Source: Pelagomonas calceolata (lineage: Eukaryota > Sar > Pelagophyceae > Pelagomonadales > Pelagomonadaceae). From it: a stretch of 64,000 nucleotides of DNA. The notes under the pieces were generated by a model. It searched no databases and was not told the DNA's origin. It saw nothing but the letters and a program-made list of their open reading frames with translations. The stretch's first letter is position 1. The number at the start of each line of letters is the position of its first letter. The translations under genes were made by a program, and so were the position numbers. Below, one piece after another: positions 2,928 to 59,935 of the stretch. The stretch covers positions 2,728,001-2,792,000 of the forward strand of contig CAKKNE010000005.1 of assembly GCA_918797485.1 (NCBI GenBank), read 5' to 3'.

Positions 2928-3555
2928 CGTAGCCCCTCTACGAGCTACTCGTGGTGGTGCTGGTACTCGTGGTTGTGCTGGCACCGCGGGCGAGCCTGGT
3001 CGTAGCGTGTACGCGTGCGCAGCGACGAATGCGTAGGGGCAGGCTTTGCCAGGACTTTGGGCAGCCTCCGCAACAGCTCATACAATACTGAGCTATGCTC
3101 CGCAGGAACGTCGAGATGGTCCCAACTACTGAGTGAGCCGAGAGCGGAGCCGGCGCGACCAAGGCATACAAAAATCCAGCCAAACCAGGCCAGTGCCAGA
3201 GATGCCAGAGATGCCAGAAATGGCCTGCGTGCACCACCGCTATTGGGGAAATCGAGGGTTCTCTGTGCGGCCGGTACGCTCCTAATGACTCCTGGACTCG
3301 GCCCGACGCTAGCGGCCTGTAAGACACTAGGGAGCCAGCCTCTCGGCTCTCCTGGACATTGCCTGGCATAGAGCTGTGAATTTGTGCACTGATCGATATC
3401 GCAGTGCGCGCGCAGCAAGCAAACCGCAACCAATTCACAACAGTCAGCACGCGCGCGCCCACCGCCGCGCCTTAGCTAGCGACTGCAAAGCTCAAGACCA
3501 CTCACAGCACGCGTGCCCTCGGCGCGCCCTAAGCAATCAAGGCTGCACAAAAAAA
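2928..3555. other. Divergent promoter region between zinc-finger gene and ATP-citrate lyase
   Basis: About 630 bases without a convincing gene. It holds one perfect copy of the 23-bp promoter repeat (3308-3330, minus orientation) and a short tandem array of the 10-mer TGCCAGAGAT at about 3194-3222. The ATP-citrate lyase frame is open upstream of its ATG, but this leader does not resemble the family. Confidence 0.5.
3308..3330 (-). promoter_or_regulatory. 23-bp promoter inverted repeat, copy 1
   Basis: Perfect consensus copy in minus orientation: starts CTAGTGTCTTA and ends GGCCGCTAGC. It lies 226 bp upstream of the ATP-citrate lyase ATG, between divergent genes. Confidence 0.7.
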
Positions 3556-6500
3556 ATGTCAGCGAAAGCAGTAAGAGAACACTACGGCAAGACCTTACTG
3601 GCTCGTCATTTAAGTGAGCACGGCGTCAATGTGGACGCCCGCGGCTTCCTCGTGCGGACCGACGTAAAAGAAGCGTCGAGCGAGCACACCTGGACTAATT
3701 TATTAGACGAGAACCCCTGGGCCAAGACCACGAAACTCGTCGCGAAGCCCGACCAGTTGATCAAGAGGAGGGGCAAGGCCGGTTTAGTATATGTCAACAA
3801 GACGATAAGTGAAGTGCAAGGCTGGGTGGACAGCAAGTTAGGCCAAACTGTCACAGTAGATAACGTCGAGGGCATCTTGCACACGTTTCTGGTGGAGCCC
3901 TTCGTTCCTCATCAACAAGAAGACGAGTTTTATGTGGCTATCACTTCAGATAGAGAAGGTGAGACGTTGCTGTTTTGCCGGGACGGCGGCGTGGACGTCG
4001 GCGACGTCGACGCCAAGGCGTCTCGATTAAAGTGCGGTTTGGACAACACGCCTACCCTACAAGAACTAGAACTATTTGTGCAAGACGCACCGGTAACTCG
4101 ACGGAAGCAACTCGCCCAATTCTATGGCGCTTTGTTAAAGTGCTACAGGGACCTCCACTTCACTCTGTTAGAAATTAACCCCTTGGTCGTCGACGACGAG
4201 AAGGTAACACCGCTAGATCTGGCCGCGAAGATCGACGAAACCGCGCACTTCCTCTGCCAGAGCAAGTGGGGCCCGACCGATTTACCCGCGCCGTTTGGTA
4301 GGCCCGAGTTCCCGGAAGAGGCCTATATTCGCTCGTTGGATGCCAAGACCGGTGCTTCATTAAAACTAACAATCTTAAATGTGACTGGTCGAGTGTGGAC
4401 GCTCGTCGCGGGTGGTGGGGCTTCTGTGGTCTACGCCGATACGATATGTGACCTGGGTTTTGCGCATGAATTGGCGAACTACGGGGAATATTCCGGTGCA
4501 CCAACAGATGAACAGACCTTCAATTATGCCAGAACCGTGCTAGGCTTGATGACGCGTACGCGCAGGGACGACGGCAAAGTACTCATAGTAGGCGGCGGCA
4601 TCGCGAACTTTACGGATGTGGCCGCTACTTTTCGTGGGTTGGTCAAAGCTCTCAAAATGTACCGTGATGAGTTGTTAGCTGGAAATATCAAGATATATAT
4701 CAGAAGGGCGGGCCCGAACTACCAGGAGGGCCTCAAGATGATGTTGAAATTGAGGCAGGAGTCCGGGCTATTTATACGGGTGTTTGGGCCGGAGCAGGAC
4801 GCCGTGAGCGTCTGCCCCTTGGCCCTCGGTCTCGTCCCGGAGGACTCGTTGCAGGACTTCGATCCTGATAGGAGAGAAGTGAAGGTCGACGAAAAGGCCA
4901 AAGTACAACCTCCTCCAGTACCTGGTTCACCGGTGCCGCGCTCGCCGCAACGGACCTTCTCGGCCGGCTCGCTGTCGTCTTTATCACTGGACGCCATGAG
5001 CCAGACGCAGTTCTCTGATAAAACTAGATGTATTGTGTACGGGCTGCAAGCTAGGGCGGTGCAGGGCATGCTGGACTTCGACTTCATGTGTAAGCGGAAG
5101 AAGCCGTCGGTCGCGGCGATGGTCTACCCGTTCCAAGGGGCTCATTATTCCAAGTTCTACTGGGGCACGGAGGAGACGTTGGTGCCCGTGTATCCTTCCT
5201 TACAACAAGCTTGTAGTAAACATCAGGACGCGTCGGTGTTGGTTAACTTCGCGTCGTACCGAAGCGTGTACGATACGTGTATCGATGCGTTTGACCATCC
5301 CCAGTTACGAACATTAGCTATCATCGCCGAAGGCGTGCCGGAGAGGCAGACCAGGGAGATCATCGCGAGAGCCGCAGAAAAGCAGGTGGCGTTAATAGGC
5401 CCAGCAACGGTAGGCGGCATCAAGCCAGGCTGTTTCCGGATCGGGAACACGGGCGGCATGCTCGACAACATCGTGCTGTCGAAATTATATAGACCTGGGT
5501 CTGTCGGTTATGTTTCTAAGAGCGGTGGCATGTCGAACGAACTCAACAATATTATCTGCAAGAATTCGGACGGCGTCTGTGAAGGTGTGGCCATCGGCGG
5601 CGACGCCTATCCCGGGAGTCGCTTTGTCGACCACTTACTACGATACGAAAACAATGAAGACTGCAAGATTTTAGTTTTATTAGGTGAAGTAGGTGGTGCG
5701 GACGAGTACGACGTCTGCGAAGCGATTACGTCCGGTCGCATCACGAAACCATTGATAGCGTGGTGCATCGGGACGTGTGCTTCGGCTTTTAGTTTTGAGG
5801 TGCAATTCGGCCATGCGGGCGCTTGTGCCCGCGGCCGCGGGGAAGATGCTCGTTCTAAGAATCAAGCTTTACTACAAGCGGGCGCCGTCGTCCCTCGGTC
5901 ATTTGCGGAGTTCGGCGATGCTATCAAGAAGGTCTACGAGGGATTGGTAACAAAAGGTACTATCATACCTAAGCCCGAACCGGACATCCCGAGGGTACCC
6001 CTCGACTACACGTGGGCTAAGAGGTTAGGAATGGTTAGGAAGCCGGCCAATTTTATCTCTACCATATCAGATGATCGAGGGGAAGAGCTCAAGTACGCTG
6101 GCGTTCCCATCTCTGAAGTCTTTGCCGAGAACTTAGGTGTGGGCGGCGTGCTATGCTTACTATGGTTCAAGAAGCGACTACCAGCTTATGCTACTAAATT
6201 TGTAGAAATGGTGCTCATGGTGACCGCGGACCACGGCCCAGCAGTAGCAGGTGCCCACAACACTATTGTGGCGGCACGAGCCGGCAAGGACTTGGTGTCG
6301 TCATTAGCGTCCGGGTTACTCACGGTAGGACCTCGCTTCGGCGGCGCCCTCGATGGAGCGGCTCGCATGATGACCGACGCCCTGGATCGGGGCATCTCTC
6401 CATTAGATTTCGTGACCGAGTGCAAGAAGAAGAACAAGTTGATCATGGGTATTGGTCATAGAATAAAATCGCTGGAGAACCCTGATAAACGAGTTTCGAT

Positions 6501-6831
6501 TATTAAAGAGTATGCTCTACAACATTTCCCGAAGACGCCTACCCTCAACTTCGCTCTACAAGTGGAACAGATAACAACTCAAAAAAGATCGAACCTCATA
6601 CTGAATGTCGATGGCTGCATCGCCGTTTGTTTTGTCGATCTTCTTAGACATTGTGGGGCGATGAGCGTGGAGGAGGCCGACGAACTTATTGGAGATGGGT
6701 GTCTGAACGGGCTCTTTGTCTTAGGTCGGTCGATCGGGTTCATTGGGCATCATTTAGATCAGAAGCGCCTGAAGCAGCCGTTGTATCGGCACCCGTGGGA
6801 CGACATCTCGTACATCTCCGACGACCTCTGA
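3556..6831 (+). CDS. ACLY: ATP-citrate synthase (ATP-citrate lyase), single-chain form
   Basis: 1091 aa from the ATG at 3556, which follows a run of A; the frame is open 60 codons further up, but the family begins at about MSAKAVREHYGK. The length matches the animal single-chain enzyme (about 1100 aa). Domain order: ATP-grasp (1-260, with LLEINPLVV), citrate-binding Rossmann part (TILNVTGRVWTLVAGGG, GEYSGAPTDEQTFNYA), CoA-binding and ligase domain with the phospho-histidine in FGHAGACARG (His753), then the citrate-synthase-like module (LTVGPRFGGALDGAA, MGIGHRIKS). A Ser/Pro-rich linker near 455-490 is where animal enzymes are phosphorylated. It makes cytosolic acetyl-CoA and oxaloacetate from citrate, ATP and CoA, feeding lipid synthesis and acetylation. 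Intronless. Confidence 0.97.
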   Translation: MSAKAVREHYGKTLLARHLSEHGVNVDARGFLVRTDVKEASSEHTWTNLLDENPWAKTTKLVAKPDQLIKRRGKAGLVYVNKTISEVQGWVDSKLGQTVTVDNVEGILHTFLVEPFVPHQQEDEFYVAITSDREGETLLFCRDGGVDVGDVDAKASRLKCGLDNTPTLQELELFVQDAPVTRRKQLAQFYGALLKCYRDLHFTLLEINPLVVDDEKVTPLDLAAKIDETAHFLCQSKWGPTDLPAPFGRPEFPEEAYIRSLDAKTGASLKLTILNVTGRVWTLVAGGGASVVYADTICDLGFAHELANYGEYSGAPTDEQTFNYARTVLGLMTRTRRDDGKVLIVGGGIANFTDVAATFRGLVKALKMYRDELLAGNIKIYIRRAGPNYQEGLKMMLKLRQESGLFIRVFGPEQDAVSVCPLALGLVPEDSLQDFDPDRREVKVDEKAKVQPPPVPGSPVPRSPQRTFSAGSLSSLSLDAMSQTQFSDKTRCIVYGLQARAVQGMLDFDFMCKRKKPSVAAMVYPFQGAHYSKFYWGTEETLVPVYPSLQQACSKHQDASVLVNFASYRSVYDTCIDAFDHPQLRTLAIIAEGVPERQTREIIARAAEKQVALIGPATVGGIKPGCFRIGNTGGMLDNIVLSKLYRPGSVGYVSKSGGMSNELNNIICKNSDGVCEGVAIGGDAYPGSRFVDHLLRYENNEDCKILVLLGEVGGADEYDVCEAITSGRITKPLIAWCIGTCASAFSFEVQFGHAGACARGRGEDARSKNQALLQAGAVVPRSFAEFGDAIKKVYEGLVTKGTIIPKPEPDIPRVPLDYTWAKRLGMVRKPANFISTISDDRGEELKYAGVPISEVFAENLGVGGVLCLLWFKKRLPAYATKFVEMVLMVTADHGPAVAGAHNTIVAARAGKDLVSSLASGLLTVGPRFGGALDGAARMMTDALDRGISPLDFVTECKKKNKLIMGIGHRIKSLENPDKRVSIIKEYALQHFPKTPTLNFALQVEQITTQKRSNLILNVDGCIAVCFVDLLRHCGAMSVEEADELIGDGCLNGLFVLGRSIGFIGHHLDQKRLKQPLYRHPWDDISYISDDL

Positions 6832-6908
6832 TATGAGGCTAAGTGATCCGTGTATTTATTTATTTGGGTAGGGTGCCTCGATGGCGTAATCCACGAGCTC
6901 CCAATTCA

Positions 6909-6931
6909 CTAGTATCTTACAGGCCGCTAGC
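6909..6931 (+). promoter_or_regulatory. 23-bp promoter inverted repeat, copy 2
   Basis: One mismatch to consensus (CTAGTATCTTA start). It lies 158 bp upstream of the RNA methyltransferase ATG and 78 bp after the ATP-citrate lyase stop. Confidence 0.7.
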
Positions 6932-7088
6932 TGATTGCGAGTGCAGCGCCGCAGATCAGCGCATTTATTGCAATCAACTCGGTGCAGCCGTGATAACAAC
7001 GATTTTTAGTCTCTCTACTGGTCCGACGTCAATCGCTGCCAGTCCAGGCGCCGCCAAAGGCGCACTGCACACTGCTGCACAGTGCAGC

Positions 7089-7939
7089 ATGGCTCGCCGC
7101 GCCCTCGCGGCCGCGGCGATTTTCACGAGGCAAGCGAGCGCCCTCGCCTACGACGCGCGCTTCCGCAGCAAGGTCGACGGCCTCGTGGCCCGACGGCGCG
7201 GCGACCTGTTGGTTGTTCTCGAGGACTGCACCGACCCAGCGAACGCTGCGAGCATCGCACGAGTCTGCGACGGCTTCGGCGTGCCGGAGCTGCTGTTCGT
7301 GACGTCGCGCGCGCCGGCGCCGAAGTTCGACCCCCGCGGCGAGGGGCTGCGGCGGCTCAGCGCGTCGGCGACGCAGTGGGTCAAGCTCACGTCCTATTCG
7401 TCGGTCGACGCCAGTGCATAAATCAAACCGTCGCGGCGCATCAGCTCAATTCAGCCAGCACAGTGCATCCGAATCACTGCTTTATTTGCGCACAGGTCGA
7501 CGCGTGCTACGACCGCCTCCGGCGCGACGGCTTCGCAAGTGCGGCGTGCGTCATGGACGAGGATGCGGTGTTGCTGCCGGCGACGGACGACGACCTCGCG
7601 CGCCGCGATTTACTCGGCGGCGGTCCGCTCGCGCTCTGGTTTGGCACGGAGAGTCGGGGTCTCTCGCCCGCCGCCGTGAGCGGCGCCGACCGCAAGGTGC
7701 TCATCCCGATGGTGGGACAAGTGGAGTCGTTTAACCTCGCCGCTGCCGCGGCCATAATCGTCGCCGAGACGTGCCGGCTCGCCGGGCCCTCACAAATACC
7801 ACCACAAAAAAACCTCGCGGAGGACCTTTTGGAGCAACACTCATCCTGGCACGAGCCGCAGCGGCGCCTGCGACGACGAACGGCAGCCGCGGCGCGCGGC
7901 GAGATATTTAGACAAAGGCGGCGGGCGGATGCTGGCTAA
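7089..7939 (+). CDS. SpoU/TrmH-family RNA 2'-O-methyltransferase (two exons)
   Basis: Exon 1 is 7089-7403 and exon 2 is 7496-7939; both junctions are phase 0, giving about 252 aa. The N-terminal part (LLVVLEDCTDPANAASIARVCDGFGVPELLFV) and C-terminal part (LWFGTESRGLS, then IPMVGQVESFNLAAAAAI) are the three SpoU motifs, including the knot-forming Asn and Ser of the SPOUT fold that binds S-adenosylmethionine. The family methylates ribose 2'-OH of tRNA or rRNA; which RNA is not evident. The N-terminus (MARRALAAAAIFTRQASALAYDARF) looks like an organelle presequence. The intron is an introner with a perfect 8-bp target duplication. It converges on the carbamate kinase gene. Confidence 0.88.
7404..7495 (+). 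mobile_element. Introner element forming the intron of the SpoU methyltransferase
   Basis: The element (7412-7495) starts CAGTGCATAAATCA and ends TTTGCGCACAG, an imperfect terminal inverted repeat. It is flanked by a perfect 8-bp duplication GTCGACGC (7404-7411 and 7496-7503). Splicing GT at 7404 (inside the upstream duplication) to AG at 7494-7495 (element end) restores the uninterrupted reading frame, phase 0. This is the youngest-looking introner in the window. Confidence 0.88.
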
Positions 7940-7961
7940 TTTGTATTGTTAAAACCGACAC

Positions 7962-8999
7962 CTAGGACGGCGACGACTCCTCGGGCGGCGACGTGTGCCA
8001 CGTGACGTCGTCGGGCACGTCGCGGCAAACTTTGGTTCCTTTCGCTCCACTCATCAGCTCGGCGGCGTCGTTCAAATCCCCGATGATGGCCCACGCGCCC
8101 GGCTTCGAACTGCCTTCGACGAAAGAAATGGCGGCGCTGATCTTGGGGCCCATGCTGCCCGGGAACTTCTGGCCCGTCTTCCTCGCTTTGAGGTACTTCG
8201 GCGTGACGGCCTTCATTTCTCTTCCATCAGGCTTGCCGAAGTTGTGCCAGATACCTCCGCCATCCGTCAAAATAATAAACCCATCAGCCTCGAGTTCGCG
8301 CGCCATCAATGCGCCTGTAGCGTCCTTGTCCACCACAGCTTCGACGCCGACGACGTCCCCGAACACACGAGAGACCGGAGCGCCGCCGCCGCCGCCCGCG
8401 ACGACCAGTCCTGGATAGTTGTTCTCGAGCAACGTCCGAGCCGCATCCAGCTGCAACACCGCAATGGGCTTGGGAGACGCCACAACCCTCCTATAATATT
8501 CGCCGTCCTGCTTGATGGTCCAATCTAACTGATTGGCCAGAGCTTCGGCCTCCTTGAAGCCGTAGACGGGTCCCACATACTTGGTAGGGTTATCGAAGGC
8601 CTTGTCGCCGGCATCCACAGCCGTTTGGGTGACGATGCACGCCGCATCGACACCCGCACTCTGGAACGCCTGGGCTAGGACGTATCCAATTTGACCTTGA
8701 GACTCGGCGCCCAAGACATCAAACGTGGCTGCAGATCTCTCTAAAGCTAACTCACCAACTTGCGGCCCATTCCCATGCGTGAGTAACACTTGATGGCCCG
8801 CCTGGCGCAATGCTAGGATGGAGGGCACCATTTGTTTTGCGGCTTTTAACATGTTTTCGATGGTCAGCCGGTCGCCTCGCCGCTGCAGGGCGTTGCCTCC
8901 TACTGCCACAACAATGCGTTGCGGCGGCACTGACGGTGTGGCGTCATCACTTAACAAGCGTACGGTGCGTCTTGTTCTCCTCGCGAGGCGGGCCAGCAT
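7962..8999 (-). CDS. Carbamate kinase
   Basis: 345 aa, single exon. After a roughly 27-residue Arg-rich presequence (MLARLARRTRRTVRLLSDD), suggestive of mitochondrial import, comes a full-length amino-acid-kinase-fold carbamate kinase: VVAVGGNALQRRG, LLTHGNGPQVGEL, GQIGYVLAQA, VVAGGGGGAPV, AVVDKDATGALMA, FIILTDGGGIWHNFGKP, FPGSMGPKISAAISFVE. Carbamate kinase interconverts ATP plus carbamate with ADP plus carbamoyl phosphate; it is best known from bacterial arginine deiminase pathways and some anaerobic protists. All catalytic-loop signatures look intact. No arginine deiminase genes lie nearby, so its pathway is open. It is convergent with the upstream methyltransferase. Confidence 0.93.
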   Translation of the reverse strand: MLARLARRTRRTVRLLSDDATPSVPPQRIVVAVGGNALQRRGDRLTIENMLKAAKQMVPSILALRQAGHQVLLTHGNGPQVGELALERSAATFDVLGAESQGQIGYVLAQAFQSAGVDAACIVTQTAVDAGDKAFDNPTKYVGPVYGFKEAEALANQLDWTIKQDGEYYRRVVASPKPIAVLQLDAARTLLENNYPGLVVAGGGGGAPVSRVFGDVVGVEAVVDKDATGALMARELEADGFIILTDGGGIWHNFGKPDGREMKAVTPKYLKARKTGQKFPGSMGPKISAAISFVEGSSKPGAWAIIGDLNDAAELMSGAKGTKVCRDVPDDVTWHTSPPEESSPS

Positions 9000-11957: not shown

Positions 11958-12023
11958 GACCCTATGTGTATATATATGAGTAAGATGGTACTGGTTATTT
12001 TCTTCGCGCGATCTGGGGATAGT

Positions 12024-12044
12024 GTTACGGTGCTAGGACTAGTG
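12024..12044 (+). repeat. GTTACGGTGC-type promoter companion motif, copy 1
   Basis: A 21-bp stretch identical to 57706-57726. Each copy lies 30-80 bp upstream of a copy of the 23-bp promoter repeat. It contains GCTAG and ACTAGT, so it may carry further half-sites. Confidence 0.55.
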
Positions 12045-12074
12045 GGCGGAGTCCCTGGGGGGATTACTTTGTTG

Positions 12075-12097
12075 CTAGTGTCTTACAGGCCGCTAGT
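12075..12097 (+). promoter_or_regulatory. 23-bp promoter inverted repeat, copy 3
   Basis: Matches consensus except for the last base. It lies about 170 bp upstream of the ATG at 12267. Confidence 0.7.
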
Positions 12098-12266
12098 GAT
12101 TTTTTGGGGGGGCTTGGCGGCTGTACGGGCGTTAACGAAAGCTACAGCTCGGTTCGTGGTGCGGCATACACGCTCAGTTCGATAATAACGCTGCCCTCAT
12201 AACGCGAGCTCTGCTGTCACGCCACAAATCGAACTTGGACCGAGGCACTGCGCTGAGCACTGAGCA

Positions 12267-12956: not shown

Positions 12957-12967
12957 CAATCCAAGAA

Positions 12968-14593: not shown

Positions 14594-14999
14594 GGTTGCC
14601 GCCGTGCGTGTACGTCGGTGGCGTCGACGACGGTGCGTTGGCGGTCGGCGCTGTGCCGCAAGAACCGCCGCAGCGTCTCCAAAACCGCGTTTCGGTTGGT
14701 GCTTTTATCACAGTTGACAGGTATTTGTGTTTGGGCCTGCGGTCGTTTCTCTGTCGGCCAGGGAGGACTCTTCCAGGTCGGAAGCCGCGGCGCGAGACGA
14801 GTCTTGCCACGAAACGCGCGCTAGAGCTGCTAGCTAGCGTGCAGACGCAGCTCTCCAGCCTCTCCTGGCTAACTCTATAAGGAGCTAGCGGTGCCCGTGG
14901 CGTTGCGCGTGCAGACCTCGATTCCTCTGCAGTGCTGCGACCGCTCGCTTGCCTTTGCTTGCACTGCTGCGCACGCTGCACGCTGCACACTGCAGAGCG
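14594..14999. other. Divergent promoter region with degenerate GCTAGC sites
   Basis: No gene seen in about 400 bases. Two weak relatives of the promoter repeat occur: CTAGAGCTGCTAGCTAGC at 14821-14838, and at 14869-14889 a 21-bp stretch with CTA and GCTAGC ends. They lie 110-180 bp upstream of the SLX9-like ATG. Confidence 0.45.
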
Positions 15000-15522: not shown

Positions 15523-15545
15523 CTAGTGTCTTACAGGCCGCTAGC
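15523..15545 (+). promoter_or_regulatory. 23-bp promoter inverted repeat, copy 4
   Basis: Perfect consensus copy, 124 bp upstream of the NmrA-like ATG and about 60 bp after the SLX9-like stop. Confidence 0.7.
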
Positions 15546-17600: not shown

Positions 17601-18038
17601 CTCTCTTGTCGAATTCGTGCTGCGTTACGGTCTGCTGTGGAGGTGTTCTGCCCAGGCTATGAGGGCTTGGCAGCCAGGGGCGCTCGAGACCTGGATTTTT
17701 TTCACCTTATCGATGAATAGGGCAGTATTTGGGGGATTCTATGCTAGCGGGTTGCTATGTTTGGTTGCGTGGGCTTCACAAACAAGCGGACAAATCTTGC
17801 TCTGCGAAGGCTAGTGCCTTACAGGCCGCTAGCTACAACGATTATCGTCGCAATTTTTCACGGCGCCGGGGAATAGTCGCCTCGCGGGCATCTCGAGACA
17901 CGCCCAGGCTTACTCGGCCTCCGCCTGACGCCGACGCCTCGCCGCGCCGCGCCCCCGCGACGCGTGAAACCGGCCCAAAGTCGCCGGAGACTCGAGAGCC
18001 ACACAGACGCGCCGCGCGCCCCGTAATACAGACTAGAG
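17601..18038. other. Divergent promoter region, homeobox/ARPC2
   Basis: About 440 bases with no gene. The only clear element is the 23-bp promoter repeat, almost exactly midway between the two start codons (about 210 bp from each). Confidence 0.5.
17811..17833 (+). promoter_or_regulatory. 23-bp promoter inverted repeat, copy 5
   Basis: One mismatch to consensus (CTAGTGCCTTA start). It lies 211 bp from the homeobox start and 206 bp from the ARPC2 start. Confidence 0.7.
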
Positions 18039-20117: not shown

Positions 20118-20140
20118 CTAGTGTCTTACTGGACGCTAGC
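20118..20140 (+). promoter_or_regulatory. 23-bp promoter inverted repeat, copy 6
   Basis: Two central mismatches (TTACTGGACGCTAGC end). It is 93 bp from the PARG-like start and 136 bp from the MORN start, in a divergent promoter. Confidence 0.65.
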
Positions 20141-24325: not shown

Positions 24326-24348
24326 CTAGTATGTCTCGATACGCTAGC
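24326..24348 (+). promoter_or_regulatory. 23-bp promoter inverted repeat, copy 7 (diverged centre)
   Basis: The ends CTAGT and ACGCTAGC are kept over exactly 23 bp; the centre differs (about 15 of 23 match consensus). It lies 134 bp upstream of the EEP nuclease ATG. Confidence 0.55.
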
Positions 24349-32285: not shown

Positions 32286-32732
32286 GATTGTTTGGCGCGC
32301 GTCGACGGCGTTTACGCTCAGCCTCCTGGAACGCTGCTTTGCGTCCCGGCAGTACTTTGCGCGCGTCGACGGCGTCGCGTCGCGCTGCCCTGCCCTGCTC
32401 TTCAGGGGAGCTGCTCTGGGGCAATTTTATGTCGCGGCTGCCGCAGCCGCTCGCTAAGCGGCTGTGACAGGTCAGCTATGTCGCACGCGACGTCTGCCTC
32501 GCTTGCGCGTATCAATGCCCCCGCACAGCCAGCACGGCGGCGAGTGCAATCGAGTTTGCTAGTGTCTTACAGGCCGCTAGGTCCGGCCGGTATTTTGACT
32601 CTGGGCTGTTTTTAGCCCTCCAGAGATAGCTTACGTAAGCTACAGACAGCCGCGGCGGTGCCTATTCATCGCTGCTCCAGCCACGGCGCAAAAAAACCGC
32701 TTCGCGACAAGCCTAGCAGACCCTAAGCGCCA
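32286..32732. other. Divergent promoter region, RS protein/BPI-PqiA gene
   Basis: About 450 bases with no gene. It contains introner-core-like GCGCGCGTCGACGGCGT twice (near 32297 and 32360) and one copy of the 23-bp promoter repeat. Confidence 0.5.
32559..32581 (+). promoter_or_regulatory. 23-bp promoter inverted repeat, copy 8
   Basis: Consensus except for the last base. It lies 152 bp upstream of the BPI-PqiA-like ATG and 274 bp from the RS-protein start. Confidence 0.7.
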
Positions 32733-37839: not shown

Positions 37840-37862
37840 GCTAGCGGCTTGTAAGACACTAG
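37840..37862 (-). promoter_or_regulatory. 23-bp promoter inverted repeat, copy 9
   Basis: One mismatch, minus orientation. It lies between divergent starts, 122 bp from the DUF285 ATG and 102 bp from the ATG at 37964. Confidence 0.7.
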
Positions 37863-40780: not shown

Positions 40781-41394
40781 GTTTCCTCGTCGCGCGGCGC
40801 CGCCTGCGGGCGCGAGCGCTCCCGGGGCTTTTCTTTGACGTTTGTTTTCGCTGTGCGCTCGCCGCGCTCGCCGCGCGACGGCGCCTTGAGCTCAGCGACA
40901 GCGCTTCGCGCCTGCGGGTCGCGGAGACCGGAGAGCAGCAGGTTGGGCTGTGAGAGCCTTGTTTGGCCCAGGCAGAGCTACCTGCGGGCGCAGCCTTCGC
41001 ACAGCTGGCTCAATCCGACTCGTGCGTGTCCTTCGCTGTCTCCACACGTCCCTGCGTGCGAGAGCGCTCGTATAACCAGGCAGCGGCGACACGAGGCGCG
41101 GAGGAGCTCCACGACGAGCCGCGAAATCGATCCGTCCGTGCGCGACAAAAGGGGTTCCTGGAGGCCTGGTTGGCGGAGCAAAGAGTCCCAGCGTTAGCGT
41201 AAAGTAAGATACTAGCAATAGCAGGCAAGCAGAGTGCATCGCAAATTTGGGCATCAAAGCGGTGCGTAAAAGCTGCATCCTTGCGCGTTTGCGACGCACG
41301 GATAACACCTGCAACTCCAGCGATTTTGGACCGCATTCATTCACTGTACAGAGAAAGCAGTGCTTGCCGCAAGTGCAGTGCAGAATTAACAACA
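40781..41394. other. Divergent promoter region, RS-JmjC/Hsp70-like
   Basis: About 610 bases with no supported gene. It contains a short tandem CGCTCGCCG array (about 40855-40880) and a diverged 23-bp promoter repeat at 41193-41215. The Hsp70-like frame is open back to 41281 without family likeness. Confidence 0.5.
41193..41215 (-). promoter_or_regulatory. 23-bp promoter inverted repeat, copy 10 (diverged)
   Basis: Minus orientation; starts CTAGTATCTTAC and ends ACGCTAAC, exactly 23 bp, 17 of 23 match consensus. It lies 180 bp upstream of the Hsp70-like ATG. Confidence 0.6.
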
Positions 41395-51467: not shown

Positions 51468-51682
51468 GGCCTCCAGCTCCGCTCCGAGGAGCTCTGTTCC
51501 CGCAGGCCTGGACTACGGCAGCATCGGTGCTGCCTCCCGCCCTTTTATCACACCATCGGGCTGCCTCTCGTGGCTGGCTGGAGCGCCGAGCGCTGCCGAG
51601 CGCTGCAAAAATGAAAAAAAACGCACGGGTTTTGGCCGATACGTCTCGAGGACCACGAAACAGGACTACAAGCCAGGCATAC

Positions 51683-52705: not shown

Positions 52706-53023
52706 TTTTGCAGTGGCCCTTGTGTCTTGTGTGAGAGCTAATATGTGCCAAAGTCGGCTCGGCTTGGTCGAAATCGCTTGTACTCGCTGCGCGGCAACTT
52801 TAGTGTTCCGGAAACAAAAAGCGGACGCGACCGGATGAGCTCTACGACGATGCTTACAGCTCCTGCACCGTCCTGCTTTGCTTGCTAGTGTCTTTACAGG
52901 CCGCTAGCTCGGCGCGGGCTTGCTTGCTCCGAGTTCACCAAGAGCGCGCACAGGCTGCCCCAGGACCCTCACGAGTCTCAACACCACTCTCCGAGGTCGC
53001 CAGCCTTAGCCAATCAATCAGTC
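52706..53023. other. Divergent promoter region
   Basis: No gene seen; about 320 bases containing one 23-bp promoter repeat with a one-base insertion. Confidence 0.5.
52885..52908 (+). promoter_or_regulatory. 23-bp promoter inverted repeat, copy 11 (24 bp)
   Basis: Consensus with a single extra T in the centre (CTAGTGTCTTTAC). It lies 116 bp upstream of ATG 53024 and 180 bp from the MSC-protein start. Confidence 0.68.
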
Positions 53024-54541
53024 ATGTCCAGGCGCCGCTGGGACGACAGGCCACCCGCCGAGGTGTGCCCTCCCTTCCCCTTCCTGCGCCTGCTGCCGGA
53101 GATGCGGCGCGAGGTGCTCAAATTCGTCGTGAGCGTGTCGCCGAATCATGGCGCGCGGTTCTTTGTGCGGCAGGCGCGTGAAGAACACCCACGCGACCTG
53201 ATCGATACATATCATCGCCCCCTCGAGGGCATGGACCACCTCCGCGCGGGAAGCGCTACGTGCACGCACTGGAGCACAAGTTCGTGCCTGACGACCGTCA
53301 TGCACCACACCCGCACGACGCGCACGGTCTGCTCGGCGATCCGAGGTGATATAGAGGCGCTGGAGGCGCCGCGGTCTCCGCTCGCGACGCCCCGCGTGTG
53401 GCTCTCGCACCTGTACGAGGTACCATCCGCGGCGGTGCGAGACATGAGTGGCCAGCAAGTGCTACGAGAGCTCCGCAAGCGCTCGCTTGCCGGTCGGCGC
53501 GCAAACCTTGTCGCCGAAATGCAATGGCGTCAAGACAAGCTCGTTGACGTAAATGGATCGCAGATGGAACGCGCGAAAATGGCTTCCGGAAAAAGGAATG
53601 CAGATCGACCGCGCAATTCCTACGAGCTTGTCGCGAAATGCCCTGCCTCGTGGAGCAAAAAACGAAAAGAAGCTGCGCTCGAGCTCGCACGCAACGCAAA
53701 GTTCAACTCATTTCGCACCCACTCCTCGTGGGCTCTTACCAAGGTTCGTACCCACGAGGAGCGTCACGCCGTCGCCCCCATCGACGCGTCGCTCCTAAGC
53801 TCGCTGGAGGCCTCGGCGTACGAGTCATTCTTGAGTTCACTCCGGCAGCAGACATGGACGGGATATGCGGAGTCTGTCACGCTCACGTACCAGAACAGAA
53901 CAAGCGACGGTGAAAGCGTGCCGGAACCGACTCCAGACGTCATCGACGAGGTCGGCCGCCGCGTCGCCGCCTTCTTCGGCACGACGACCATGGCTCAGCA
54001 ATCATGGATACAGCAATGGACTAACAAGGTGCACAACGACGAAGAGATGACCTGGGAACAGTACGAGGACGAATGCGAGTACTGGGAGGGGTACGAGGAT
54101 GACCCGGAGTACAAGGGCGAGCTCGACGACTACCACGACGCGGACCGGCCGCCCCTCACCCGATGGCAAGACGTCTTTACGATGGTTCGATCCAGGTCGC
54201 TCCGGGATGATGGAACCGAGCTAGCCCTCACGCGCGATCGATCACGAAATCCTAAGCTGCCAGTGGCAAAGATCGTTGCGACAGTTCACACTCTGCAAAT
54301 GCCGGCTGAAGAAAATGCCAGAGATAGACGTCGATGCATACTTTTCTCGGACGTCCGGTGCCTCGGTGGTCAAGGTCCGGTGATGCATCCCGAGGCTATG
54401 TCCAATTTTCATATTGGCGAACATCCTTGGTTCTCGCATAATCGCGATTCGTATCTGAACTCCGGCAAGCTGACGGTGTACTGGCGCGATATCTCGCAGT
54501 TCGGGCTCGAGATTGAAATCGCCTTCCCAGCCATCTCCTAG
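53024..54541 (+). CDS. Unrecognised 505-aa protein
   Basis: Single exon with a good ATG and promoter repeat upstream. The N-terminus (FPFLRLLPEMRREVLKFVVS) faintly resembles an F-box-like helix pair. The middle is basic (ASWSKKRKEAALELARNAKF), followed by an acidic aromatic stretch (YEDECEYWEGYEDDPEYKGE). The C-terminal 100 residues have alternating hydrophobic strands (KLTVYWRDISQFGLEIEIAF). No transmembrane helix or catalytic motif is visible. Codon use is less GC-extreme than in neighbours. Function unknown. Confidence 0.6.
   Translation: MSRRRWDDRPPAEVCPPFPFLRLLPEMRREVLKFVVSVSPNHGARFFVRQAREEHPRDLIDTYHRPLEGMDHLRAGSATCTHWSTSSCLTTVMHHTRTTRTVCSAIRGDIEALEAPRSPLATPRVWLSHLYEVPSAAVRDMSGQQVLRELRKRSLAGRRANLVAEMQWRQDKLVDVNGSQMERAKMASGKRNADRPRNSYELVAKCPASWSKKRKEAALELARNAKFNSFRTHSSWALTKVRTHEERHAVAPIDASLLSSLEASAYESFLSSLRQQTWTGYAESVTLTYQNRTSDGESVPEPTPDVIDEVGRRVAAFFGTTTMAQQSWIQQWTNKVHNDEEMTWEQYEDECEYWEGYEDDPEYKGELDDYHDADRPPLTRWQDVFTMVRSRSLRDDGTELALTRDRSRNPKLPVAKIVATVHTLQMPAEENARDRRRCILFSDVRCLGGQGPVMHPEAMSNFHIGEHPWFSHNRDSYLNSGKLTVYWRDISQFGLEIEIAFPAIS
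53727..53761. repeat. Short inverted repeat inside the 505-aa gene
   Basis: CTCCTCGTGGG is followed about 20 bp later by CCCACGAGGAG, an 11-bp perfect stem within coding sequence. Confidence 0.55.
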
Positions 54542-54628
54542 GACTCTTCTATAGTTTGTTCATATTAACAGGAGCTTTGCGCAAGAGAGAGGGGAAGCGA
54601 TAGAGCGTTCGAGACGCTCTCGCGTTGC

Positions 54629-55816
54629 TCACGCGGCGGCGACGTCGGCTAGCGGCGGGCACACCGTCCCCCAGCCGAAGGGGTCCGGCTTTTCGCCGAA
54701 TTGAATCGCTCGGTAGTGGTTGTAGAGCGCCTCGACGCGCTCTATGCTCTCGTACCGGTGCACGGTGTTTTGATTAGTGATGCTTTTCACGCCCATCATC
54801 ACCACCGCGGTCCCACACCCGGCCACCTCGCGGAAGTCTCCTAGTTCGGCCACGTCCACCGGCCGTCGCTCGACCTTCATGCCGAACGCGTCCGACGCCG
54901 CGAGGTCCATGAGCATGTCATTTGTCGCACTCCTAAGAATGGTAGGCGAGTCGGGCGTCACGTACGTGTTATCCTTGATGCCGATGAAGTTCGACACGCT
55001 GAACTCTTCGATATATCGTTTTTCTTTGGGGTCGAGGTATAGCACCGTAGGGTAGCCCTCCGCTCTCGCGTCGATGGACACGCGGATATCCGAGCCGTAG
55101 TTGCCCGAGGCCTTGACGTGGCCCACGCCCTGCGGGGCGGCTCGATCCGCGTCGTGTGCGACTAGCACATCAATCGGCTGGAGGCCGCCCGCGTAGTATG
55201 AGGACACGGGCATCGCGAGGACACAAAAGTGGAATTGCGGCGCCGCCGACAAGCCTAACTGCGGCCCATGCCCAAAAATGTAGGGCCGCAGGTACAAAGC
55301 CCCGCCCGTGCCGTAGGGCGGGATATACGCCCGATTCGCGGCGACGCACCACTCGCACGCCCGGATAAACATCTCCGGCGGCACGGCGGGCATCATCATC
55401 CTTTCACAACCCTCCAACATCCGATGGGCGTTCGCCTGGATGTTCCACAGCCGCACGGAGCCGTCTTTGCAGTGGTGGGCCTTCGCGCCTTCGTAGACGC
55501 CCTGGCCGTAGTGGATCGCCGCGCTCATCACATGTAGTTTGAGGAAGGGCTCGGGCTCCCACTCGCCGTCGTCCCACTTGCCGTTGACCCACGTGTGCTT
55601 CACAAACCCATTCGTCTTCTGGAAGTCAAACCCTAAACGCGGCCAGTCGAGGCTCGCGGCGCCGACGTCGTCGAGGCCGTGCTGCGGCGGCGTCGTCGCG
55701 AAGGTCCGTGCCGGTGCCGTCGCGCGGCGCGTCTGGAGGCAGCGCGCCGCCGCCGCTCTCCGTCGCGCGGCGGCCCAGACGGACCGCCAGCGTATGCGCG
55801 TGGGGAAAACGGACAT
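54629..55816 (-). CDS. Branched-chain-amino-acid aminotransferase (class IV)
   Basis: 395 aa, single exon. A roughly 45-residue Arg/Ala-rich presequence (MSVFPTRIRWRSVWAAARRR, then RTFATTPPQHG) suggests mitochondria. The fold-type IV PLP enzyme then shows IHYGQGVYEGAKAH, YLRPYIFGHGPQLGL, GVGHVKASGNYG with the PLP lysine Lys235, YIEEFSVSNFIGI and TILRSATNDMLMDLA. It transfers the amino group between Val/Leu/Ile and 2-oxoglutarate, in the last step of synthesis or first of breakdown. Length and motifs match eukaryotic BCATs. Divergent from the LRR gene. Confidence 0.93.
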   Translation of the reverse strand: MSVFPTRIRWRSVWAAARRRAAAARCLQTRRATAPARTFATTPPQHGLDDVGAASLDWPRLGFDFQKTNGFVKHTWVNGKWDDGEWEPEPFLKLHVMSAAIHYGQGVYEGAKAHHCKDGSVRLWNIQANAHRMLEGCERMMMPAVPPEMFIRACEWCVAANRAYIPPYGTGGALYLRPYIFGHGPQLGLSAAPQFHFCVLAMPVSSYYAGGLQPIDVLVAHDADRAAPQGVGHVKASGNYGSDIRVSIDARAEGYPTVLYLDPKEKRYIEEFSVSNFIGIKDNTYVTPDSPTILRSATNDMLMDLAASDAFGMKVERRPVDVAELGDFREVAGCGTAVVMMGVKSITNQNTVHRYESIERVEALYNHYRAIQFGEKPDPFGWGTVCPPLADVAAA

Positions 55817-55828
55817 GTGTGCGATTGG

Positions 55829-55870
55829 TGCAGTGCCAAACTGCCTCTCTGCAGTGCCAAACTGCCTCTC
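55829..55870 (+). repeat. 21-bp tandem duplication in the BCAT 5' region
   Basis: Two adjacent perfect copies of a 21-bp unit beginning GCAGTGCCAAACTGCC, just upstream of the BCAT start codon. Confidence 0.8.
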
Positions 55871-55942
55871 TGGTGCCGCGAGCGGCGCAACCCTGCGGAC
55901 AGAGGCGTCACTCTTGCAGCCTGGGAGGCGATTGTTGCTGTG

Positions 55943-55966
55943 CTAGTGTGTGTCCTCCACGCTAGC
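55943..55966 (+). promoter_or_regulatory. 23-bp promoter inverted repeat, copy 12 (diverged centre, 24 bp)
   Basis: CTAGTGTGTGT start and CCACGCTAGC end are kept; the centre differs. It is 127 bp from the BCAT start and 213 bp from the LRR-protein start. Confidence 0.58.
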
Positions 55967-56178
55967 AATAGTCCTCCACACTCCCGGAGAGCTCCTCGCA
56001 GGCTGCCGCCTCCCCGAGACTTTCGCCTCGCAGCTCGACGACGACGGCTGGCCTAACGCAACGAGAGCGCCGACAATTGGAGCCGCCGCGCACGCCATCG
56101 GCGCGAGGGCAGCTTCCGGGCACATCTCCTGCACGACGCGAGACTGACCGCACGCCGCCGCCGCGGCCAACGGGCAGC

Positions 56179-57588
56179 ATGGCCGAAGCCAAGGAAGATG
56201 AGGGGGCAGCCCCCCCAGCCGAGTCCAAGATCAGTGAGGAGGAGCTCGCCGCCGTCGAGGAGCTAGCGGCAGCACATAAGTGGGTTTTAGGAGATGTCTT
56301 CACGAAGCAAGAGCTCGCGCAGCACGGCGTACGAACCGACGCGGCCGTCTGTGCGGTCCTACAACGATCTCCGTTCTTCGAGTTCTTCGCCCTACCGCCA
56401 CCGGAGGAGGCCAAGGTTGATCCGAACGAAGAGCAGTTCGACCCTGACCAAGTGGAACCCTTGAACGCCTTCAATTTCACGAGCGGCGACCTGAAGCTTA
56501 TGCTTGACGAAAGAGGCGTAGCTCCCAAGGGCTTCTTCAATGACGACGCTCGGACCTTACAAAAGCTCTTGGACGACGAGCATGCGACAAGAATAGCCGA
56601 GCTGCGGGCCGAGTTCAACGCGAGAGTCGCGAAAAAGAGACAAACGGAGTTCAGGCACAAGCACCGGCTGCAAGTCGTCAAAGGTATAAGGGAGGAGGCC
56701 GACGTCATTGTAGATGCGGGCGAGGACGGGGATTTGACGCAGCGATTGATGGAGCTCCATGAGCAGGCGCCTCAAGTGTTGAGTATTGCCGATGTGCTCA
56801 GAGCGTCACCAAATCCATCCGCGGCGGGTCGGTGCCTGGCCAAGGTGCTTTATAGTCGTGTTACTTCCATAATATCGTTGGATCTCAGTCGTGCTCGCTT
56901 GGATGATACGGCTTGCGCGTATGTGGCGCGAGCTTGTAGGGCGCCGGGCTCGGTCCTAGCTTCCTTGGATCTCGAGGGGAATGAGGCCGGTCCTAAAGCC
57001 TGTGAACAGTTAGCGGAGACCATTGCTCAAACTTCGTTGAAGGCGCTGAGCCTCGAGGGCAATAATCTAACGCAAGGTGGTGAAGACGGTTTCAAGGAAC
57101 TGTGTAGAGGGCTACGCTCCTCGTCATTAACGCGGCTGTCGCTGTGGCGGTGTAACCTGCCTCAATCATGCGGCCCATCGCTGGCCGAGGGCGTCGGTCC
57201 TTCACTCTTTCTCCTCGAGACTGGAGGGAATCTATTTCTTGAGAGAGATTTAGATGACATCGAGGATCGACTGCGGGCGAACCGTAATGATAGAGATCAG
57301 AAAGCGGAAGAAGCGCGGCTGCTGCGACGGCGGACGCGGAAAGAGCAAAAAGCCAAAGCTGCCGCCGATGCGTTGGCCGCAAAGCAACGCGACGTCGAGG
57401 AGTTCCTGGCGCGGCGCAAGCAGGAGCGCGCCGAAAAACGGGAGCAGGAGGCGAAGGAGAAGGCCGAGGCCGAGGCCCAGGCTCTGCTGGAGCGCGAGGC
57501 GCGCGAGAAGCAGCGTTTAAAGGAGGCCGCTTCGGGCAAGAAGGGCAAAAAGGGCAAGAAGGGGAAAAAGGGTAAGAAGAAGAAGTAG
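56179..57588 (+). CDS. Leucine-rich-repeat (RI-type) coiled-coil protein
   Basis: 469 aa from ATG 56179 (the upstream in-frame ATG at 56077 gives an unlikely Arg/Pro leader). Residues about 230-345 are ribonuclease-inhibitor-type LRRs (IISLDLSRARLDDTACAYVA, ASLDLEGNEAGPKACEQLA, KALSLEGNNLTQGGEDGF, TRLSLWRCNLPQ). A long Arg/Lys/Glu/Ala coiled coil follows (about 365-450), then a pure basic tail built of GKKGKK repeats. Such LRR-coil proteins often belong to ciliary or cytoskeletal complexes, but nothing here proves that. Confidence 0.75.
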   Translation: MAEAKEDEGAAPPAESKISEEELAAVEELAAAHKWVLGDVFTKQELAQHGVRTDAAVCAVLQRSPFFEFFALPPPEEAKVDPNEEQFDPDQVEPLNAFNFTSGDLKLMLDERGVAPKGFFNDDARTLQKLLDDEHATRIAELRAEFNARVAKKRQTEFRHKHRLQVVKGIREEADVIVDAGEDGDLTQRLMELHEQAPQVLSIADVLRASPNPSAAGRCLAKVLYSRVTSIISLDLSRARLDDTACAYVARACRAPGSVLASLDLEGNEAGPKACEQLAETIAQTSLKALSLEGNNLTQGGEDGFKELCRGLRSSSLTRLSLWRCNLPQSCGPSLAEGVGPSLFLLETGGNLFLERDLDDIEDRLRANRNDRDQKAEEARLLRRRTRKEQKAKAAADALAAKQRDVEEFLARRKQERAEKREQEAKEKAEAEAQALLEREAREKQRLKEAASGKKGKKGKKGKKGKKKK

Positions 57589-57705
57589 CCTATATCATCG
57601 CGCCGGCGGCGCCGGGAGTGAGCCTGGAGGGCATCTTGGGGTTTCGGGAGAGTGGGGGGCGCTCGTAGGGACTTTCATGTTACGGTGCCCCGACACGGAG
57701 TAATT

Positions 57706-57726
57706 GTTACGGTGCTAGGACTAGTG
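57706..57726 (+). repeat. GTTACGGTGC-type promoter companion motif, copy 2
   Basis: 21 bp identical to 12024-12044, again followed by a CTAGT...GCTAGC element 82 bp downstream. Confidence 0.55.
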
Positions 57727-57807
57727 CGACCCACAAAAGGCTCAGGCTAGTTACGTCGCGGGGTCCCCCGTACCCCTCCCGCTCCCCCCGGGCCCACCAA
57801 AAGATTT

Positions 57808-57828
57808 CTAGTGTCTCTCGCCGCTAGC
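57808..57828 (+). promoter_or_regulatory. Promoter inverted repeat, copy 13 (21-bp variant)
   Basis: CTAGTGTCTC start and GCCGCTAGC end, two bases shorter than consensus. It is 196 bp upstream of the PSMA3 ATG. Confidence 0.6.
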
Positions 57829-58023
57829 TTAACTCGCCGCGCGCCTACCAGCCGCCGCGCTCGTCGTACACAGCTTCTGTGCACGCGCCGCTGTGCCCAC
57901 ACGTCCTTCGTGTAGCCACAGATCCGCCCGCGCCGCTCAGCGCTGTCTCGCAGTGCCTCCGCGAGCCGCCACCAATTTGGACGACCAGAGGGTCCTCGCC
58001 GCGCAGCGCGCGCCTAGTACAAA

Positions 58024-58806
58024 ATGGCCTCGACGGGCGCCGGCTACGACCTGAGCCCGACGACCTTCTCGCCGGACGGTAGAATATTTCAAGTAGAATA
58101 TGCCACAAAAGCGGTGGAGAACTCGGGCACCGTCGTTGGTATTAGGTGTGCTGATGGTGTAGTTTTAGGAGTGGAGAAGGTCATGTTGAGCAAGATGCTC
58201 CTACCGTCATCAAATAGAAGAGTGGCCGCCGTAGCCCCACATGCCGGCGTGGCCCAGGCCGGAAGTACGGCGGACGGCCGCCAGGTCGTCGCGCGCGCGA
58301 GGGACGAGTGCGACTCGTATGATGACACTTATGGTATTGAGATCCCGCCTTCCGTATTAGCGCAGCGGCTCGCGGAGTACGTGCACTATTTCACGATCCA
58401 TGGAGCATTGAGACCCTTCGGCGCGTCGACGATGATCGCCGCCTACGACGCGCGGAAGAAGACCCACGAGTTGTATGTCCTGGAGCCTACCGGAGTGTGT
58501 CTGCGCTATTTTGGGGCCGCCCTCGGCAAGGGCCGCCAGTCGGCCAAGAGCGAGATCGAGAAGCTCGACCTGACGAAGCTCACGTGCAGAGAAGCCCTGA
58601 AGGAGATCGCCAAGATGATTCATACGACGCACGACGACGCCAAGGACAAGCCCTTCATTCTGGAGTTCGCCTGGCTCTGCGAGGAGACGGAGTGGAAGTA
58701 CGGCCTCGTGCCCCAGGATCTTATCGACGAGGCGGACGCGTGGGCGAAGAAGGAGCTCGAGAGCGACGACGAGGACGACGACGGCGACGAGGAGATGGCG
58801 TCCTAG
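58024..58806 (+). CDS. PSMA3: 20S proteasome alpha subunit, PSMA3 type (alpha7)
   Basis: 260 aa, single exon. The alpha-subunit N-terminal signature is intact: GYDLSPTTFSPDGRIFQVEY followed by ATKAVENSGTVVGIRC. GVVLGVEKVMLSKML, RPFGASTMIAAYDA, YFGAALGKGRQSAKSEIEKL and KPFILEFAWLCEETEW point to PSMA3 rather than other alphas, as does the acidic C-terminal tail (ESDDEDDDGDEEMAS), a PSMA3 hallmark. It is a structural ring subunit with no peptidase activity. Length is typical (about 255 aa). Confidence 0.96.
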   Translation: MASTGAGYDLSPTTFSPDGRIFQVEYATKAVENSGTVVGIRCADGVVLGVEKVMLSKMLLPSSNRRVAAVAPHAGVAQAGSTADGRQVVARARDECDSYDDTYGIEIPPSVLAQRLAEYVHYFTIHGALRPFGASTMIAAYDARKKTHELYVLEPTGVCLRYFGAALGKGRQSAKSEIEKLDLTKLTCREALKEIAKMIHTTHDDAKDKPFILEFAWLCEETEWKYGLVPQDLIDEADAWAKKELESDDEDDDGDEEMAS

Positions 58807-59123
58807 GTGTTTCCCATCCTGGTATTAATAGCGTATTTACTCGACCTTGAGTGCTCTTGCTTCCCTCATACGCCGTCCCTAGAGTGCGCTTGGGAAAACG
58901 CGCAAATGACACGTAAAACACGGCGTATTTACGTTGGACCGTTTCTCACGTACCTACCTACTGACCTACGCAACCGCAGGAACCTAGCCCGGGGGGGGGT
59001 CTCCTCGAGTCCAGTGCTCACGTAAAGAACGCCGTGCGTAAATCGCACCCTAGTACGCCGTCGCCCCGAGTGTTAGTCGGACAACTTGAACGGCGAGGGG
59101 GAGGTCAGGACTATTCCGTAAAC
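58807..59123. other. Convergent intergenic region
   Basis: Between the convergent PSMA3 and SET genes. No gene seen. GCGTATTTAC occurs twice (58831 and 58923) and there is a run of nine G at about 58990. Confidence 0.45.
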
Positions 59124-59729
59124 TTACGCGACCGGCTTGTCCTCCTCGAACCAGTACTCCTCGCCGTAGTCAAAACACAACTCCTCGCCCTCCTTGATGG
59201 GTCGCGTCGAGACGAACCAGACCCGCGGGCCCTGCGTGTAGCCCGAGTAGGCCAAGCTTTTCACTCTCAGATTCGCATCAGAAGAGTGGTTGATGAAGCG
59301 GCACCAGTTCGCGAACGCCGGGTCCTCCGCGTCCACATAAAGGTCGTCCTCCACCCTAAATATATAATCCCCGGACACGGTAATGCCCTTGAGTTGCCGC
59401 GACTTCCGCCACAACTTGTCCTTCCAGTCCATTTTCGACTTTTTGTACCGTACGTCGACCTCGGCCTGCGTGAGCTGCTCGCCCACGTAGTCCGCGATCG
59501 TGATGTCTTCGTCGAACGCTTTAGCTGCAAAGGCGCCGAAGCCCTTGCCCGGGCTACTTTTAACAATGATACCGGCCTCCTCGCAGCGTCCTTCATCGTC
59601 CAAGTCGGACGTGCGCAGGCGCTTCGGCAGTTTGCTGTAAAGCGGTTGCCGTCGTCGCACCGAGGCCGGCGTCGGCGCGAAGGCGTCGACGGCGAGCCCT
59701 GCGACCAGGAGGTGCAAGGTGCGGCGCAT
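59124..59729 (-). CDS. SET-domain protein with plastid-type presequence
   Basis: 201 aa from ATG 59729 (an upstream in-frame ATG at 59789 adds 20 residues and buries the signal). The N-terminus (MRRTLHLLVAGLAVDAFAPTPA) is a signal peptide ending in AFAP, the classic cleavage motif of stramenopile plastid proteins. A compact SET domain follows: GKGFGAFAAKAFDEDITIAD, NWCRFINHSSDANLRV and GEELCFDYGEEYWF. The NHSxxxN and GEEL..DYG elements that bind S-adenosylmethionine and the target lysine are intact. No pre-SET or post-SET cysteines are seen. Lysine methyltransferase acting in the plastid is inferred. Confidence 0.85.
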   Translation of the reverse strand: MRRTLHLLVAGLAVDAFAPTPASVRRRQPLYSKLPKRLRTSDLDDEGRCEEAGIIVKSSPGKGFGAFAAKAFDEDITIADYVGEQLTQAEVDVRYKKSKMDWKDKLWRKSRQLKGITVSGDYIFRVEDDLYVDAEDPAFANWCRFINHSSDANLRVKSLAYSGYTQGPRVWFVSTRPIKEGEELCFDYGEEYWFEEDKPVA

Positions 59730-59912
59730 TGTTGACGAGCTGCTGTGCACTGCTTGAAGGAGAGAGCACAGCCTAGGCTTCGACTCCAAGCTGCAAAAGC
59801 GGTCGCTAGGGGTACGATCTGTTAATTTGCAGCACGATTACGCAAGACTGACGGTTCACTTGCTTGCAACGAGGCTTGCAGCGCTGCAAAGTGAAATGAC
59901 GATCATCTGCTT

Positions 59913-59935
59913 CTAGTGTCTTACAGGCCGCTAGC
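59913..59935 (+). promoter_or_regulatory. 23-bp promoter inverted repeat, copy 14
   Basis: Perfect consensus, 184 bp upstream of the SET-protein start (which is on the minus strand), so orientation relative to the gene is reversed. Confidence 0.7.

Follow-up and report, generated by a model that had tools for sequence, protein, structure and literature searches.

The sites of the yeast factors Reb1, Abf1, and Rap1 are short, occur at many unrelated promoters, are independent of orientation, and often lie between divergent genes; the Abf1 site additionally consists of two parts that are read across a gap. An inverted-repeat element with a similar distribution recurs in a 64,000-nt stretch of the genome of the pelagophyte alga Pelagomonas calceolata (GCA_918797485.1, contig CAKKNE010000005.1, positions 2,728,001-2,792,000), hereafter called the window. 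As judged from placement, it shares two properties with the sites of general regulatory factors, being located at the promoters of many unrelated genes and having no fixed orientation. Compared with the yeast sites, however, the algal element spans ~27 bp, has much higher information, and carries unequal inverted arms that are 6-11 bp apart.

The vertebrate ZNF143/STAF site is also long and promoter-proximal, occurs at many promoters, and is tied to initiation and bidirectional promoters, but it has a different sequence and a fixed spacing and is not known to be an inverted repeat of two arms. The insect BEAF-32, DREF, and M1BP promoter/boundary sites are likewise general marks of housekeeping-type promoters in compact genomes, although they are much shorter than the element. 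Core promoter motifs that are used genome-wide have been reported from oomycetes, which are stramenopiles and belong to a related supergroup (PMC3599244). In the part of that report that was available, however, these motifs are positioned around the transcription start, and they are set apart from the element by this description rather than by their sequence. No promoter element of pelagophyte nuclear genes was described in the literature searched, which mostly did not include subscription papers, bioRxiv, or supplements. A 12-base string led, at the level of a listing, to a paper on yeast diphthamide genes, and the accessible part of an Aureococcus paper with promoter motifs deals with an A-rich early motif of the Aureococcus virus.

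The anatomy and copy number of the element, its placement, its occurrence once per gap in the sampled DNA, its lack of orientation, its asymmetry, and the co-occurrence of its modules were all computed from sequence. These properties make it probable that the element is a polarized two-module site through which an abundant and sequence-specific factor of this alga acts at promoters. Binding by a protein, the identity of that protein, and an effect on chromatin and transcription are what we infer from these patterns.

The genome analyzed comprises 32,445,274 bases in eight contigs, and the window belongs to contig C5. The published P. calceolata assembly is given, in the portion of the paper that was available, as six nuclear contigs totaling 32.4 Mb plus a plastid and a mitochondrion (PMC9481584). 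Its published annotation has 16,667 genes. An exact-arm copy was defined as CTAGTG and CGCTAG with 6-11 bp between them, and the reversed pattern served as the control. Genome-wide, there are 4,011 such copies (2,022 and 1,989 on the two strands) versus 30 matches to the control, which corresponds to about one copy per 8 kb. A 27-bp pattern with as many as eight mismatches yielded 30 real matches versus 0.3 simulated. By itself, the seven-base arm GCTAGTG is neither rarer nor more common in the window than expected by chance (9 vs. 6.0 expected), and thus the signal resides in the pairing of the arms. A chromosome-wide strand polarity, considered because the C1 matches listed were almost all on the plus strand, was dropped as a probable effect of the way in which matches are listed: the sampled blocks carry both strands (block L011 has an exact minus-strand copy that is absent from the listed matches), and strand totals are balanced genome-wide (1,067/999).

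Finer counts were made in a 314-kb sample that combined the window with 20 C1 blocks of 10 kb each and 10 blocks of 5 kb each from C2-C6. Of the 250 kb that lie beyond the window, a single chromosome (C1) thus accounts for 200. Genes were called with a home-made codon model, according to which 76% of the sample is coding. When every spacing from 0 to 30 was counted, exact arm pairs with spacers of 6, 7, 8, 9, 10, and 11 bp occurred 1, 1, 5, 9, 24, and 3 times, and a single pair was found at any other spacing (at 24); shuffled sequence gave none at 6-11 and three elsewhere. Genome-wide, spacers of 0-5 bp are at the control level (15 vs. 23), whereas those of 12-40 bp exceed it (231 vs. 148), many of the 100 listed being 12-base spacers. 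The excess is limited to spacers of about 6-12 bp. In the most common class, the left arm continues with TCTTAC (2,091 copies genome-wide, control 0), and the left module is TTGCTAGTGTCTTAC; in a smaller class it continues with TGTC (242 copies, control 2), and CTAGTGTGTCGATACGCTAG is present in 18 of the 100 listed. The right module is (C/A)CGCTAGC, and 6-11 bp separate the six-base arms. Among 53 copies, clear conservation outside the arms is limited to TTG on the left side and CT on the right side, and a weaker preference is seen two bases further to the left.

The first-pass annotation of the window had placed the element at 14 positions, and a copy is present at all 14, as follows.

3308..3330, minus strand: perfect 23-mer with a spacer of 10, between divergent starts at 381 and 226 bp
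6909..6931, plus strand: copy with one arm difference (CTAGTA) and a spacer of 10, in a tandem gap, 158 bp to the start
12075..12097, plus strand: exact arms with a spacer of 10, in a tandem gap, 170 bp to the start
15523..15545, plus strand: perfect 23-mer, in a tandem gap, 124 bp to the start
17811..17833, plus strand: exact arms, between divergent starts at 211 and 206 bp
20118..20140, plus strand: exact arms and two spacer changes, between divergent starts at 93 and 136 bp
24326..24348, plus strand: spacer of another class, TGTCTCGATA, and one arm difference, in a tandem gap, 134 bp to the start
32559..32581, plus strand: exact arms, between divergent starts at 274 and 152 bp
37840..37862, minus strand: exact arms, between divergent starts at 122 and 102 bp
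41193..41215, minus strand: degenerate copy with two arm differences, between divergent starts at 413 and 180 bp
52885..52908, plus strand: exact arms with a spacer of 11, between divergent starts at 180 and 116 bp
55943..55966, plus strand: exact arms with a spacer of 11 of different sequence, between divergent starts at 127 and 213 bp
57808..57828, plus strand: exact arms with a spacer of 8, in a tandem gap, 196 bp to the start
59913..59935, plus strand: perfect 23-mer, 184 bp upstream of a minus-strand gene

Three copies (3308, 15523, and 59913) are perfect, in agreement with the number given, and all read CTAGTGTCTTACAGGCCGCTAGC. The accompanying statement of one or two differences in most of the others holds for six of the 11 imperfect copies, five of which have a one-base difference and one of which (20118) has two, and fails for the other five, which depart more. 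Among these, the spacer is one base longer in 52885, one base longer and of other sequence in 55943, and two bases shorter in 57808, and there are 8 and 6 differences from the 23-mer in 24326 and 41193, respectively. Arms are exact in 11 of the 14 copies; 6909 and 24326 each carry one difference, and 41193 carries two. Distances to the nearest start codon are 93-226 bp, matching the ~100-230 bp upstream of a start that had been proposed, and the two ATGs flanking 17811 are indeed 206 and 211 bp from it. By independent gene calls, none of the 14 copies is in coding DNA, as had also been claimed. Two supposed degenerate relatives at 14821 and 63662 do not match the element: both lack the CTAGTG arm, and what they have in common is CTAGCTAGCGTGC. 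This sequence, which is different from the element, is located at 14830-14842 and 63671-63683 of the window.

Copies throughout the sample are confined almost entirely to gaps that contain gene starts. None of the 43 exact-arm copies is in coding DNA, and only one of 58 copies with at most one arm difference is, perhaps by chance (both sets omit the degenerate copy at 41193). Exact copies occupy 22 of 51 divergent gaps, 18 of 58 tandem gaps, 3 of 24 gaps with an incomplete gene end, and 0 of 40 convergent gaps; with one arm difference allowed, these numbers become 27, 25, 3, and 1. The element precedes between about one-third and one-half of the gene starts sampled, at a median distance of 160 bp to the nearest start codon for exact copies (a start was reachable for 42 of 43, two of them more than 2 kb away). 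Within 101 promoter gaps of 120-1,200 bp, again allowing one arm difference, 50 copies reside in 50 different gaps and never two in one, although 9.5 gaps with two or more were expected and the fewest among 20,000 simulations was 2. In divergent gaps, copies are located near the middle, with a mean offset of 0.107 compared to the 0.25 of a uniform distribution (25 copies). Orientation was assessed in the sample together with blocks L001-L008, excluding two further copies as edge or wide cases. Relative to the gene, 11 copies in tandem gaps have the same orientation and 13 the opposite one (P 0.84, 24 copies), and in divergent gaps the left arm points toward the nearer start in 15 of 27. The gap types, the orientation counts, and the Pfam families of neighboring genes thus bear out the earlier proposal of a promoter-associated double-stranded DNA element that serves many unrelated genes in either orientation, and the even spread through genes and intergenic DNA that had been named as contrary evidence was not observed.

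The two arms are not interchangeable. Genome-wide, TG/CG arm pairs number 4,011, compared with 133 TG/TG pairs (control 7) and 38 CG/CG pairs (control 38). If like subunits bound like half-sites, both TG/TG and CG/CG pairs would be expected to be common, and both are scarce. A symmetric homodimer operator with equivalent half-sites and a fixed spacing was rejected on the basis of these arm counts and of the spacers of 6-11. The suggestion that the element is the site of a dimeric protein therefore cannot be upheld for a simple symmetric dimer, since the arms are nonequivalent in nearly all copies and spacer length differs among copies by as much as 5 bp. For the same reasons, the better fit is an asymmetric reader, which might be a heterodimer or a single protein that carries two different DNA-binding units. 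A direct-arm arrangement was found 194 times versus 21 for its control, and many of the matches listed come from regular copies that have CG behind them and overlap the pattern with their ends. Among the matches listed, CTAGTGAGTTTTGCGCCACTAG, which has TG/TG arms and one identical spacer, appears at nine places: six are within C1:2722326-3004753 (0.3 Mb), and the others are at C1:1196660, C1:2231511, and C2:1724570. It is probably part of a separate repeat.

The modules occur together. The left 12-bp module is exact at 27 places in the sample, and an exact right arm accompanies it at all 27. With one mismatch in the left module, 8 of 11 places have an exact right arm and the remaining 3 have a one-mismatch right arm. 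With two mismatches, the right arm is exact at 7 of 15 places and carries two or three differences at the remaining 8.

Evidence for conservation comes from a fragment found outside the alga's own assembly. Viral contigs gave no element match in two scans, and contigs of other genomes gave one, in a contig that is filed as a metagenome-assembled genome of an uncultured Spirochaeta and carries an apparent alga-derived piece. Positions 2043-3615 of this contig (CAJWEZ010000013.1, block L009) are 90-96% identical to C1 of the alga, and reading frames beside this stretch look bacterial by eye, which suggests an assembly chimera. In the stretch of 96% identity, the element is unchanged letter for letter; it is touched by a 3-bp indel, and 10-18 bp from it there are two substitutions plus another indel of 2 bp. 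As for the lineage, 120 relatives were listed for one window protein, and those from named pelagophytes belong to Aureococcus (83%) and Pelagophyceae sp. CCMP2097 (73%).

Under the interpretation of the element as a polarized promoter site, the putative factor would read the two unequal half-sites jointly, acting either as a heterodimer or as a single protein with two different DNA-binding units on a flexible linker. As a rule, each promoter region would have one site, usable in either orientation, and this site would make the region accessible or bring in the transcription machinery for either neighboring gene. A site midway between divergent starts would serve both genes. In a more specific form, to which we assign somewhat less than an even chance, a pelagophyte-specific factor marks between about one-third and one-half of promoter regions through a single polarized site whose halves are obligatorily coupled and elastically spaced. 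If true, polarity would be a property of the protein complex, independent of the direction in which genes are transcribed, and a genome-wide promoter mark of this kind would have a novel architecture. A strong common motif offers a direct handle on transcription starts, on the putative factor, and on expression constructs for this group. Unequal arms that are coupled over an elastic spacer with no orientation to genes pose a clear mechanistic question.

Several observations weigh against such a site. The element is missing from 51 of the 101 sampled promoter gaps, or about half, and its absence from convergent gaps, which are short, is weaker when corrected for length (P 0.005). The rule of one site per promoter is not absolute, as seen from a double site at C1:575888 and 575925. 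The sequence far exceeds the information needed to specify ~4,000 sites, arms that are near all-or-none are unusual for the site of a eukaryotic factor, and a rigid dimer would not usually tolerate spacers that differ by as much as 5 bp. Conservation is documented at one locus only. Furthermore, some copies resemble each other more than independent sites should. Among 81 spacers of length 10, identical loops form 202 pairs versus 115 expected (P 0.004), an excess that may arise from a mixture of spacer classes. An expanded spacer, TCTTACCTGTACAGGC, is identical between exact arms at five of the 100 places listed (C1:1866234, C1:5495239, C2:2050197, C2:3759684, and C3:120250), in contrast to the free variation of ordinary spacers. 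Finally, local duplication does happen: at C1:575888, the element plus 10 bp of left flank is tandemly repeated.

Identical loops and a recurring expanded spacer hint at some copying, and they agree, like the tandem duplication that includes flanking sequence and the thousands of dispersed inverted-repeat copies, with a tiny mobile or copy-paste element that favors open promoter DNA. Such an element could be a hairpin insertion or the remnant of a miniature inverted-repeat transposable element or of a relative of introners. The accessible parts of two reports add that intron lengths in this alga peak at ~210 bp, the size of introners (PMC9481584), and that some introners prefer nucleosome linkers (PMC9860276). 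We nevertheless regard mobility as an unlikely explanation. The flank repeats of 53 copies are no higher than those of permuted flanks, apart from the tandem case, which supplies the single 10-bp match (two others are of 6 bp, with 0.6 expected). Target duplications, which had been named in advance as evidence against a promoter element, were therefore not found beyond this one local event. No sequence is shared beyond the core, as information is lost 2-5 bp outside the arms of the same 53 copies, and fixed arms around a variable spacer are the reverse of neutral decay. The presence of one copy per gap and the central placement also speak against mobility. Spacer variation was examined in the 43 sample copies plus 100 plus-strand C1 copies listed in the genome-wide scan. 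Among 66 spacers of 10 that begin with [TC]CTTAC, the last four columns are independent (266 identical pairs vs. 275 expected), which fits degenerate, position-by-position contacts and not descent from master copies. Introners themselves, which are spliced introns of ~210 bp within genes, were rejected, as the copies, both arms included, are 18-23 bp long and are outside predicted coding DNA.

Less probable still is an RNA hairpin in a 5' leader or 3' tail, in which the arms would pair around a loop of free length and the constant T/G position would form a wobble on one strand. Fixed arms with a variable loop are as expected, the dominant arm pair retains a T.G wobble, and one strand folds better as RNA than the other (z -2.27 vs. 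-0.67). However, the strand preference relative to the gene that an RNA should have is absent (11 vs. 13), the element sits between divergent starts, and no Rfam match was obtained at gathering scores. Folding as a DNA hairpin is no better than for shuffled sequence. Least likely of all is a replication origin, or another element for chromosome maintenance, whose position in promoter-type open DNA would be incidental, since one copy per region without orientation would suit it, but about one copy per 8 kb is very dense for origins and the restriction to gaps with gene starts is strong.

A polarized promoter site would be consistent with the varied genes that adjoin the 14 window copies, 20 of 22 of which were scanned against Pfam. 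Matches include ATP-citrate lyase, NmrA-like, homeobox/RING, Arp2/3 p34, PARG-like, MORN, DUF285, class IV aminotransferase, proteasome alpha, and SET proteins; an HSP70-like gene adjoins the degenerate copy at 41193, and four of the 20 have no Pfam match at all. Ten window genes without an upstream copy include those for glyoxalase, amino-acid kinase, phosphodiesterase, SLX9, ion channel, and condensin proteins, and both lists are too small for a functional contrast. Genes behind the element have a slightly lower coding score (median 0.182 vs. 0.213 for 63 and 61 genes longer than 450 bases), a difference that comes from one unplanned test (P 0.0035) and is not used as evidence.

A second dispersed element, TTGTTACGGTGCTAGGACTAGTGGGCGGAG, has 302 copies genome-wide with at most three mismatches over 27 bp (control 0), and all 100 copies listed are exact. 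It is present in blocks L015, L026, L029, L032, L033, L036, L004, and L008 and at two places in the window.

12022-12051, plus strand: TTGTTACGGTGCTAGGACTAGTGGGCGGAG
57704-57733, plus strand: TTGTTACGGTGCTAGGACTAGTGGGCGGAG

All 10 clear copies in these blocks and the window (at most 7 mismatches of 30, with weaker ones dropped) are located 32-212 bp after the stop codon of a same-strand gene, nine in tandem gaps and one in a convergent gap. Because it follows same-strand stop codons, TTGTTACGGTGCTAGGACTAGTGGGCGGAG looks like a strand-specific 3'-end or termination signal. GC-rich hairpins were also considered as 3'-end signals and were dropped as too few.

Over-represented 8-mers exist in promoter gaps both with and without the inverted-repeat element. 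A third recurrent word, (TCGCG)TCGATGGCGTG, occurs in promoter gaps on either strand, in blocks L010, L014, L027-L030, L038, and others. CGATGGCG is present in 13 of the 54 element-free gaps (1.8 expected) versus 6 of the 50 gaps that have the element, and the (TCGCG)TCGATGGCGTG word may mark another promoter class.

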